Shown in pieces: positions 584 through 59,518 of a stretch of 64,000 nt of DNA. Source of the stretch: Akkermansia muciniphila (GTDB lineage Bacteria; Verrucomicrobiota; Verrucomicrobiia; Limisphaerales; UBA11320). A model generated the notes under the pieces. It had not been told where the DNA came from, made no database searches, and saw nothing but the letters and a program-made list of their open reading frames with translations. The number at the start of each line of letters is the position of its first letter. Position 1 is the first letter of the stretch. The position numbers were made by a program, and so were the translations under genes. Where the stretch lies: NCBI GenBank assembly GCA_945861575.1, contig CAMAVD010000004.1, positions 1 through 64,000 on the forward strand, written 5' to 3'.

Positions 584-1255
584 TTAGGCGGGAGAGACTC
601 CCTCGTCCGTCGCGCTTGGAGCCTCGGGAATATCCTCAACTTCAGAGGGCGGCTCGGGAGGCGGTGGCTCGGAGGCGGCATGTTTTGGCAGTTTGGCGCG
701 CTGATCGCGCGGCAGGGGTGTGATCATGGCATGTAGATCACGGTCTCCTGCCATCTTGGGCAAAGCATCGGCACGGCCATACGGGGCTGACTCTCGGATG
801 AAGCGGTTCATCACCTCATAGCCAAATTCTTTATGCGCCTTCTGGCGTCCCCTAAATCGCAGCTTGATATGGACCTTCCGCTCATCGCAGAGAAAGTTGA
901 TCGCATGGTTCAGCTTCACTCGGAAGTCGTTCGGATCAATGGAAGGAGTGAGCTGAATCTCCTTCATCTGATTGGAAGACTGACGGGCATGCGAGTCCTT
1001 CTTCCTTTTGGACTCCTCATACTGAAACTTGCCGTACTCGATGATGCGACAAACCGGGGGTGTGGCGGTTGGCGCAATCTCGATCAGATCCAGGCCCTTT
1101 GCCTGTGCGAGCCGCAAGGCCTCCGCGAGCGACATGACGCCGAGGGGTTGCTTGGTTTCGTCGAGCACACGTACTTCGCGGGCACGGATTTTTCCATTTC
1201 GCCTATGGGACGGCTCTCTGGATGGAAATTTGCGGAACGGAAATGGGCGGCTCAA
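584..1255 (-). CDS. infC: Translation initiation factor IF-3
   Basis: Typical IF-3 N- and C-domain sequence (RRNGKIRAREVRVLDE, PPVCRIIEYGKFQYEESKRKK, KLRFRGRQKAHKEFG). The first in-frame start is TTG. Carries a Pro/Glu-rich C-terminal tail. Confidence 0.95.
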   Translation of the reverse strand: MSRPFPFRKFPSREPSHRRNGKIRAREVRVLDETKQPLGVMSLAEALRLAQAKGLDLIEIAPTATPPVCRIIEYGKFQYEESKRKKDSHARQSSNQMKEIQLTPSIDPNDFRVKLNHAINFLCDERKVHIKLRFRGRQKAHKEFGYEVMNRFIRESAPYGRADALPKMAGDRDLHAMITPLPRDQRAKLPKHAASEPPPPEPPSEVEDIPEAPSATDEGVSPA

Positions 1256-1725: not shown

Positions 1726-2379
1726 ATGAAACAGACCAGAAAAAAGTGGGCTCTCACTACCAAATTGTCTTTGGCTATCGTTGCGACAGGATTGCTTCCC
1801 GCCCTGATTATCGGCGGGTTGGCCCTGCGCACCGCGAACCAGACCGCCGGGGATGTGGGTAAGACCTTGGAAGCATCCGCGGTGAATCTCGCTGATACGA
1901 TCGAGCGCAATCTCTTCGAACGTTACGGAGATGTACAGGCCTTCACCCTAAATGAGGCGGTCTTCGATCGTAGTTCCTGGTATCACATCGGCAGCGAGTC
2001 GAATCGGATATCCGCTGTGGCCAATCGCTACGCCAATCTCTATGGCTGCTATCCCCTGAGCTATGTCGTGGACCTGGAAGGGCGATTGGTCGCGGTCAAC
2101 GATAAGGACCCGACGGGCAAGGCGATCGACACCGTGTCCCTCTATCAGAAGAATTTCAAGGAGGAGGCTTGGTTCCAGGCGGCCGTCGCAGGCCAGTTCA
2201 CCAAGAGCGGTTCGCTCGATGGCACGTATCTCGAGGACCTCCGAGTGGATGTTGATCTCAAGAAGGTGTACGGAGGCGAAGGTCTATCCCTCGGATTTAC
2301 CGCCCTTATCAAGGATAGCTCCGGGAAGAGTGTGGGTGTCTGGCGCAACGTCGCGATCGAGTGTCTCGGTGCAGTCTAA
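1726..2379 (+). pseudogene. N-terminal sensor part of a methyl-accepting chemotaxis protein, lacking HAMP and signalling domains (truncated)
   Basis: N-terminal TM segment followed by a Cache-like sensor region; the ORF stops after GVWRNVAIECLGAV with no MCP signalling domain. Confidence 0.65.
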
Positions 2380-2409
2380 GTGTTTCTAATCACGGTTGAA
2401 AATGAATCT

Positions 2410-2886
2410 ATGAGCAGCACGAATGAGTTCGACATGCGGGGCCGACTTGGAACGATCGTTCCGAACGTTTTTTCCACCATGGCCAGCGTGGCCGCCACCC
2501 CTCAAGAAGGGGCGGTGGAGAAGCCCAATAAGGAGCGCGTGAGTGGCACGATCGGGATCGCTGGTGAAACGGTCACAGGAGCGGTCTATGTACATTTGCC
2601 AGACGGCTTCGCGCGGCAGATTGCGAATGCCATTCTGGGGAACCCTCCCGACCAAGCGGTCGCCGATGGCGACCTGAACGATGTGGTCGGAGAGCTAACG
2701 AACATGGTGGGCGGGGGCCTTAAGTCGGCGCTCTGCGATGCAGGGCTTCGATGTGCGATGAGCACCCCTTCCGTCATTCGAGGGGCCTTTGCCATCGATG
2801 TCCCCAACGCGCTGCGCCCGGAGATTCTCCAATTCAGCTGCCAAGGACAGACCTTCTTTGTTGAAGCGCATCTCAAGTGCGCTTGA
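2410..2886 (+). CDS. CheX-like chemotaxis phosphatase domain protein
   Basis: CheX-like fold with the ExxN-type motif in DVVGELTNMVGGGLKS. Start taken at the internal ATG (MSSTNEF). Confidence 0.75.
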   Translation: MSSTNEFDMRGRLGTIVPNVFSTMASVAATPQEGAVEKPNKERVSGTIGIAGETVTGAVYVHLPDGFARQIANAILGNPPDQAVADGDLNDVVGELTNMVGGGLKSALCDAGLRCAMSTPSVIRGAFAIDVPNALRPEILQFSCQGQTFFVEAHLKCA

Positions 2887-2900
2887 GTCGATTTAAGCTC

Positions 2901-3016
2901 ATGAAAATTCTATCGGTCGATGACAGCAAGATCATCCGTTGGTGAAACCTTTCAAGGACGAGCAAGTTGTCGAAAAGGCCGGTCGCATCCTCGCGCTTAA
3001 GAAAAAGGCAGCGTGA
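2901..3016 (+). pseudogene. Internally deleted CheY-like response regulator
   Basis: ATG AAA ATT CTA TCG GTC GAT GAC AGC AAG ATC ATC CGT (MKILSVDDSKIIR) runs directly into GTG AAA CCT TTC AAG GAC... (VKPFKDEQVVEKAGRILALKKKAA stop) in another frame. The receiver core between DD and the KPF motif is missing. Confidence 0.75.
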
Positions 3017-3135: not shown

Positions 3136-5292
3136 ATGTTCCCGCTGCGGCATCTGACCTTGTCTGGGCTCAGCTTAGGCCTTTTTGGCCTTCTGCTTTG
3201 TTGGGCCGTCCCGTCGCGGGGGGGCTCCGCTTCGATGGAGACCCCAGGGCCGCAACTCCGAATCGGAACGTTCACGCTTTCCGATGCCGACCGCTCCTGG
3301 TGGGCGTTCCAGCCGATCACTAAACAAGCCCCACCCTCCTCCCGGTTCTCACGCCCGCTGACTCCGATCGACGCTTTTGTGCGCTCCCGACTGGACGCCG
3401 CAGGTCTTGTTGCGAATCCTCGAGCCTCCCAGCGTAGTCGCATCCGGAGGGCCTACTTTGACGTGACTGGACTGCCTCCAACACCCGAGGCCGTCGACGC
3501 TTTTAGCCGGGATCGCTCCCCTGGGGCGTGGGAGCGAGTGGTGGATGAGCTTCTTTCCTCGCCGCACTACGGCGAGCGCTGGGCTCGCCACTGGCTCGAT
3601 CTGGTGCGATTTGCCGAGAGCAATGGCTATGAGCGCGATGGTGCCAAGCCACATGCATGGCGCTACCGGGACTACGTCATCGATGCGTTCAACCGCGACA
3701 CGCCCTACGACCTGTTCATCAAGGAGCAGCTGGCGGGCGATGAGATTGCTGACGAGATGCTGGCCTCTGGAAATCCCGTTGGGGATGCCTGGAAGCAGGC
3801 CGTGATTGCCACGGGCTTCTACCGGCTCCATGTCTGGGATGACGAGCCGGACGATACGCTGGCCGCTGAGTTCGACGATCTCGACGATATTCTGGTGACC
3901 ACCAGCACCGCCTTCCTAGGCCTCACTCTCGGTTGCGCACGCTGTCATGATCATAAGTACGACCCGCTGAGCCAGGTCGACTACTATTCCATGGTGGGAT
4001 TTCTACGGAACGTCGAGCCGTATGGATTGCATCACACAGGGGGTGGAGGCCGCGGGAGCGGACGTATCACGCGTCTGCTGGCCACGCCGACCGAGGTGAG
4101 ACGCTGGGAGACTGAAAAGAACGCCCGCATTCAGGCGTTGGAAGCCCGTATGGCTAGGGCAGAGCCCAAGGATCGGAAGAGCCTCGATGATGAGCTCAAG
4201 CGGGAGCGCGAGACCACTCCTCCCTTCGACGCAGCCCTCGCCATTGCCGAGCTCAACGGATCCCCAAAACCGACTCATGTAATGCTTCGAGGCCGCGTTG
4301 ACAGCCCTGGGGAGGAGGTTCGCCCTAGTTTCCCAGCCATCTTTGACCAGGTCCGGTCCCTGTCCGAGGTCAAAGAGACCGCTTCTCGGAGCATGAGCCG
4401 ACGTCAGGCGCTGGCTCAGTGGATTGCCAGCCCTGCCAATCCGCTTACGGCACGGGTGATCGTGAATCGTGTTTGGCAGCACTATTTTGGAGTGGGGCTG
4501 GTTCCCACCCCTGACGATTTCGGCCGCACCGGTCTCAAGCCGACCCATCCCGAATTGTTGGATTATCTTGCGGCGCGTCTTTTGGAAGAAGGCTGGAGCT
4601 TGAAGCGTCTGCACCGGGAGATTCTGCTGAGTGAGACCTACCAGCAGTCAACGGCCGCCACCCATCGAAAGGCCTTGGGGGTGGACGAGGGCAATCGACT
4701 CCTGTGGCGACAAAATTTACGACGGATGGAATCTGAGGTGGTGCGCGACAGTTTCCTGGCTATCAGTGGGGTTTTGAATCGCACGCAGGGAGGGCCTAGC
4801 GTCTTCCCTACTCTACCCAAGGAGATCCACATCACTCAGGATTCGGCGGGCAAGGGCTGGGGGGAGAGCAGCGCTGAGGAACAGAGCCGTCGCAGCATCT
4901 ATCTGATGGTGAAACGTGCACTCAAGCTACCACTCCTGGAGGCCTTTGACTTTGCGAACTGCACCTCATCTATGGGGCAGCGCCCGGTGACGACCACGGC
5001 ACCGCAGGCATTGATGGCTTTGAACGATGGGTTTGCCCTGACACAAGCCGACGCTTTTACCACGCGCGTGGAACGTGAAGGGGGACCTTCGACCGACGGC
5101 CGAATCCGCAGGGCTTTTGCTCTGGCGTTTCAGCGACAGCCCTCGCGGACCGAGCTCCGCAGCGCACTGGCTTTACTGCGAGACCAGTCCACGCAAGGAT
5201 CGTCAGACGGCGTGAAGGAACCTCAACGCACGGCGCTGAGAAGTCTCTGCCTCTCGCTCCTCAATGCCAGCGAAACCGTTTACGCAGACTAG
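3136..5292 (+). CDS. DUF1549/DUF1553 domain-containing protein without the N-terminal planctomycete-type cytochrome c domain
   Basis: SWWAFQPI...[100 protein letters not shown]. Confidence 0.9.
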   Translation: MFPLRHLTLSGLSLGLFGLLLCWAVPSRGGSASMETPGPQLRIGTFTLSDADRSWWAFQPITKQAPPSSRFSRPLTPIDAFVRSRLDAAGLVANPRASQRSRIRRAYFDVTGLPPTPEAVDAFSRDRSPGAWERVVDELLSSPHYGERWARHWLDLVRFAESNGYERDGAKPHAWRYRDYVIDAFNRDTPYDLFIKEQLAGDEIADEMLASGNPVGDAWKQAVIATGFYRLHVWDDEPDDTLAAEFDDLDDILVTTSTAFLGLTLGCARCHDHKYDPLSQVDYYSMVGFLRNVEPYGLHHTGGGGRGSGRITRLLATPTEVRRWETEKNARIQALEARMARAEPKDRKSLDDELKRERETTPPFDAALAIAELNGSPKPTHVMLRGRVDSPGEEVRPSFPAIFDQVRSLSEVKETASRSMSRRQALAQWIASPANPLTARVIVNRVWQHYFGVGLVPTPDDFGRTGLKPTHPELLDYLAARLLEEGWSLKRLHREILLSETYQQSTAATHRKALGVDEGNRLLWRQNLRRMESEVVRDSFLAISGVLNRTQGGPSVFPTLPKEIHITQDSAGKGWGESSAEEQSRRSIYLMVKRALKLPLLEAFDFANCTSSMGQRPVTTTAPQALMALNDGFALTQADAFTTRVEREGGPSTDGRIRRAFALAFQRQPSRTELRSALALLRDQSTQGSSDGVKEPQRTALRSLCLSLLNASETVYAD

Positions 5293-17122: not shown

Positions 17123-17214
17123 GAAAGCTTCGTTGAGGTCGCTCCCGCCGGGCTCAGGGAAAGCCAGAGAACGGCCTGCGCTTTACGTGCTTTCTCACGG
17201 GGTCAGGATGGCTG
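17123..17214 (+). repeat. Dispersed intergenic repeat, copy B
   Basis: Same blocks as 199-330, with the ~26-nt spacer GGCTCATCCTCGTTCCACTCCTGCCT absent. Confidence 0.6.
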
Positions 17215-17277
17215 AATCTGGCCTTCATCCTGTGGTCAGAGTGCCGATCACGATCGTCTTCTTCAACGAACCGGTTG

Positions 17278-59398: not shown

Positions 59399-59433
59399 GC
59401 ATCCGGCTTTCCCCCAGCCCGGCGGAAGCGATC
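59399..59433 (-). repeat. Partial inverted copy (C) of the dispersed intergenic repeat
   Basis: Reverse complement GATCGCTTCCGCCGGGCTGGGGGAAAGCCGGATGC resembles GATC-CCTTCCGCCTGGGTGGGGGGAAAGCCAGA at 223-255 and the core at 17137-17168. Confidence 0.5.
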
Positions 59434-59518
59434 TCACACAGAGTTCACGGGGTTCGCAGAGTAAGACGCTGGGCCGGTTCTGATCAGGAACTCTGTGACC
59501 TCTGAGAACTCTGTGTGA
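59434..59518. repeat. 29-bp imperfect inverted repeat
   Basis: TCACACAGAGTTCACGGGGTTCGCAGAGT (59434-59462) against the reverse complement of ACTCTGTGACCTCTGAGAACTCTGTGTGA (59490-59518): 24/29 matches by eye. Confidence 0.65.

Follow-up and report, generated by a model that had tools for sequence, protein, structure and literature searches.

Class F1 chemotaxis operons have been described with CheC and CheD (PMC10746217). The operon found in the relatives of the genome analysed here matches F-type chemotaxis operons, with their CheC/CheX/CheD accessory proteins, in CheA, CheW, MCP, CheR, CheB, CheD, CheX and CheY. The genome itself is a fragmented MAG of an uncultured member of the Verrucomicrobiota (5.23 Mb in 377 contigs, 85.6% complete), and the window, by which we mean the whole stretch of DNA that was analysed, consists of the first 64 kb of its contig C4 (71,183 bp). 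Compared with F-type operons, the window retains no more than CheX and fragments of a receptor and of CheY, and the likeness is one of gene content. The locus (1726-3016) lies less than 3 kb from the contig end and consists of a cut-off MCP gene, an intact cheX and a gutted, out-of-frame cheY (Table 1). We consider it to represent real and fairly recent reductive decay of a CheD/CheX-type chemotaxis operon, with a probability of roughly 0.75; a literature search found no paper on decay of this operon in Verrucomicrobiota.

The best named relatives of the window are Verrucomicrobiota MAGs. In one related genome (G216, locus L225) the genes are ordered mcp-oprB-cheR-cheD-hdod-cheB-cheX-cheY; an hdod/cheX fusion follows, and cheR and cheD are separated by a divergent HDOD gene. 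In a second one (G217, L141) cheA, cheW, a gene of 366 aa and mcp' precede cheR, and the genes from cheD to hdod/cheX come after extra sequence between cheR and cheD. The same genes are present in permuted order in G052, where the MCP stands behind cheW, and the block cheD-hdod-cheB-cheX-cheY was found there and in at least seven other genomes (G077, G233, G076, G241, G079, G227 and G249). Judging from these arrangements, the window most likely descends from an operon of the type mcp-(oprB)-cheR-cheD-hdod-cheB-cheX-cheY-hdod/cheX. In the relatives cheY is followed by a gene (L139 3955-4680 and its equivalents) for a protein that combines an HDOD part with a second CheX domain; this gene is absent from the window, where the PSCyt2/PSD1 gene occupies its site. 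The 366-aa gene between cheW and mcp' in G217 (L141 13486-14583) has no Pfam match and MCP-start-like first residues, and possibly represents another receptor without signalling core.

Table 1. Features of the chemotaxis remnant and of its two neighbouring genes in the window.
Feature	Position	Strand	Basis
infC (IF-3), intact left neighbour	584..1255	-	Pfam (IF3_N 3.2e-29, IF3_C 3.7e-23)
mcp' 5' remnant (TM1 and about 2/3 of the periplasmic dCache region)	1726..2379	+	homology; TM prediction in the alignment of relatives
Junction 1, mcp' joined to the cheX leader	2356..2409	+	comparison with relatives
cheX, intact, CheY-P phosphatase family gene	2410..2886	+	Pfam, alignment, PDB match
cheY 5' remnant, codons 1-13 (MKILSVDDSKIIR)	2901..2939	+	alignment with relatives
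Junction 2, 2 nt replacing 264 nt (262-nt deletion, frameshift)	2940..2941	+	comparison with intact cheY
cheY 3' remnant, last 24 codons (VKPFKDEQ...KKKAA) and stop, other frame	2942..3016	+	alignment
PSCyt2/PSD1 (DUF1549/DUF1553) gene, intact right neighbour	3136..5292	+	Pfam

The mcp' frame encodes 217 aa with one TM helix, TM1, at residues 10-37. Neither the MCPsignal domain (PF00015) nor a second TM helix, which together with TM1 would enclose a periplasmic sensor, was found in it; the match to dCache_1 is weak (0.0022, below the Pfam cut-off), and a PDB search with the fragment returned chance matches only. MCP matches were obtained in all of the 80 loci kept, which belong to many phyla, and nearly all of these matches end at query residue 208-210, the best full-length MCP being 60% identical over 202 aa. 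Full-length dCache MCPs from Verrucomicrobiota, Planctomycetota and Nitrospirota resemble mcp' over the first 210 residues (about 40-60% identity), but in the window gene the remainder of dCache is missing, as are TM2 and the signalling domain. Homology stops at residue ~210 (base ~2355), where 7 foreign residues lead to the stop codon, and it is secure from these alignments that the frame descends from full-length MCPs and is a pseudogene of this family. Past the break the relatives continue for about 120 more periplasmic residues, reach TM2 at ~335 and then enter the signalling domain. Since these residues and TM2 are missing, the predicted product is a fragment of a sensor, and not the sensor-only receptor ending after its Cache part that the preliminary description had assumed. 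Two mcp' homologues elsewhere carry stops of their own, namely a TGA in place of the Trp codon in GVWxN (L074 6598-6600) and a single in-frame stop about 35 codons beyond that position (L078 3079-3081), each followed by normal MCP frame.

Junction 1 spans 54 nt and cannot be located to the base, and a repeat as long as ~50 nt could lie there. Its counterpart in the relatives contains the C-terminal half of the MCP and the genes cheR, cheD, hdod and cheB, preceded by oprB in one genus. Junction 1 most likely stands for several absent genes and not only for the MCP signalling domain, a conclusion that draws mainly on G216 and G217, since no other relative with an MCP immediately ahead of this gene set was found; the lesion would thereby extend beyond MCP and CheY. 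Direct repeats flanking the deletions were searched for, and only short chance pairs were found.

The cheX reading frame extends from 2380 to 2886, with a GTG at 2380 in frame upstream of the ATG at 2410 that is probably the real start according to the alignment. Its product matches the CheX family (PF13690) at 1.1e-17 (64.3 bits, curated cut-off 27) and the solved CheX structures (PDB 6vpw and 3hm4), with 2.5e-15 to 6vpw. The E-x-x-N active-site motif is kept (GELTN) and none of the 20 near-invariant columns is changed; nothing notable distinguishes the protein from the CheX phosphatase family, but the gene of its adjoining CheY substrate is broken. The Pfam search and the alignments with relatives bear out the earlier account of a chemosensory remnant with two deletion-type lesions around an intact CheX that retains ELTN, while the domain search that had been proposed along with it matched neither MCPsignal nor a receiver domain at the locus. 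In the phylogenetic trees the window CheX is sister to those of G077, G216 and G217 (98/92), and mcp' groups with the mcp' of G217 and two others (93/94), so that the kin of both window genes share one operon.

The cheY remnant starts 14 nt after cheX and stands directly behind it as in the relatives; a full-length cheY lies alongside cheX at 46 of the 58 cheX loci, a set that includes a few duplicates and the window itself. The region 2901-3016 reads MKILSVDDSKIIR, then 2 nt, then VKPFKDEQVVEKAGRILALKKKAA*. In intact cheY relatives exactly 88 codons separate 'IR' from '[VI]KPF' (14/14), where the window has the 2 nt, and codons 14-101 are absent from it together with the phospho-acceptor Asp region. 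The preliminary description had recognised the loss of this region and the change of frame at the join, and the alignment with relatives now places the break after codon 13 and sets the loss against all 14 intact genes. On both sides of the junction cheY-typical sequence reaches the break. In every one of the 14 relatives VKPF is preceded by G-(V/A)-(R/Q)-D-Y-(L/I), which is unlike DDSKIIR at the 5' side; because of these unlike flanks we infer that no k-mer of at least 21 bases would be shared between them and that the join would be ambiguous by a few nt.

Such a structure probably arose in two events. In the first, everything from mcp' codon ~210 to just before cheX would have been removed or moved, and in the second, 262 nt would have been lost from the middle of cheY. 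Judged by domain content, neither broken gene should be able to signal, given a receptor devoid of TM2, HAMP and signalling domain and a CheY fragment devoid of the phosphorylation site. The decay is probably ordinary pseudogenisation. Point lesions are absent from mcp' and cheX, so that at the window locus only the deletions argue for decay.

Further chemotaxis genes occur on other contigs of the same genome, including CheA, CheB/R/D, six MCPs and a second cheX-cheY, so that chemotaxis itself may persist despite loss of the present locus. Contig C7 (L140 6122-7264) encodes a CheY with two receiver domains behind the second cheX. The window CheX presumably remains expressible, and it could act as a phosphatase on the CheY whose gene adjoins the second cheX on C7. 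On contig C31 (L189 8514-13938) a cheR-cheD-hdod-cheB block with neither cheX nor cheY lies close to a flagellin gene, and contig C3 carries a CheA with an MCP.

These contigs suggest a variant of decay that would account for junction 1, namely dispersal of the operon, in which cheR-cheD-hdod-cheB was relocated to the flagellin locus on C31 and cheA/mcp to C3, and the mcp'-cheX-cheY left behind then lost the remainder of mcp' and the cheY core. It overlaps with the decay explanation, and the weight we give it is a share of that given to decay; we propose it tentatively. The block on C31 is exactly cheR-cheD-hdod-cheB, the CheA on C3 is closest to the CheA of the G052 operon (53%), and one tree places C31 next to G077, G216 and G217, the kin of the window CheX (89/92). 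The long C31 branch is unstable, however, and the other tree roots on C31; this placement is not strongly supported. At the ends of the C31 block, neither mcp' nor cheX remnants were found. The reading that C31 carries the segment cut out between mcp' and cheX, bordered by remnants of both, was rejected, since the block was found but the traces were absent and tree support was equivocal. Relocation of cheR-cheD-hdod-cheB to C31 as such is possible.

It is less probable, and on balance unlikely, that the two junctions were created by misjoining or collapse during metagenome assembly and that the operon is intact in the living organism. The genome is a fragmented MAG and the site is near a contig end; the two lesions lie 0.6 kb apart without point mutations, and the span of junction 1 could accommodate a repeat. 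In addition, a 2-N gap lies inside cheY of another MAG, where part of the receiver is lost (G203, L226 3669-3670), which indicates that assembly faults at cheY sometimes occur and can mimic decay. Against this, the cheY junction has no repeat and no N bases are present within the window. Misassembly would further have to be reconciled with the absence of an orphan MCP 3' end from the genome's own assembly, in which the six MCPsignal genes are complete and have their own, different N-termini. A Pfam scan of 20 further window proteins gave matches for 18, and in none of these is anything missing on the scale seen in mcp' or cheY, although this control is coarse, as some proteins are only partly covered by Pfam.

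The same operon is moreover decayed in relatives. In G217, mcp' and the middle/C-terminal part of an OprB porin form a single reading frame (L141 12242-13498); a full oprB adjoins mcp in G216 and is 75% identical over 238 aa to the fused part, and the fusion may be genuine, through a deletion, or may have been created during assembly. Frameshifts also affect cheB and the end of cheA in this genome. In G078 (L235 8730-10280) cheB lacks residues ~68-223, its core; cheY contains a stop codon and a frameshift, and its VDDS motif reads VDHS. G217 and G078 resemble the window in that damage to the same operon falls on similar genes (mcp', cheB, cheY), but their lesions differ from those in the window, comprising the mcp'-oprB fusion and frameshifts in the former and the deletion of the cheB core with nonsense and frameshift lesions of cheY in the latter. 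Where point lesions occur together with deletions, as in these relatives, assembly is hard to blame. The preliminary description had left deletion and repeated assembly collapse side by side; decay is favoured, because no repeat of k-mer length fits the cheY junction, so that a collapse through a repeat at cheY falls away, and because the same operon decays with point lesions in relatives.

A further explanation, that the truncated receptor is a functional and separately selected sensor fragment for which CheX has been kept, appears very improbable. The 217 codons are open, all 39 near-invariant residues are kept, and the mcp' homologues in L074, L078 and G217 are also cut nearby by a stop or deletion. 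The open frame without departures from near-invariant columns indicates that the lesions are young or, less likely, that the fragment is still selected. An open frame is, however, what a young pseudogene should show: a neutral divergence as high as ~0.12 substitutions per site would still be compatible, at 5% probability, with 210 codons free of stops. Moreover, TM2 is missing, the dCache fold is only partial, the 7 residues before the stop are unrelated, and most homologues are full length. Equally improbable is the broader idea that, within this taxonomic order, independent and recurrent losses of the operon are under way through internal deletions sparing cheX, with truncated receptors retained as functional membrane-anchored sensor fragments.

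As a case of decay, the locus offers a clear snapshot of a chemotaxis operon coming apart, in which the phosphatase gene outlasts its neighbours, and the intact layout and the independent damage in relatives can be compared side by side with the window remnant. Surveys of gene presence in MAGs could score 'MCP' and 'CheX' here despite the broken local system. Existing knowledge of chemotaxis is unchanged by the finding. In genomes of the same genus the neighbours of infC (on its upstream side) and of sdhCAB differ from those in the window, so that the locus is not traceable there by synteny. A short dispersed repeat was also observed in the window, at 213-328, 17127-17215 and 59402-59436, with copies about 83-88% alike.
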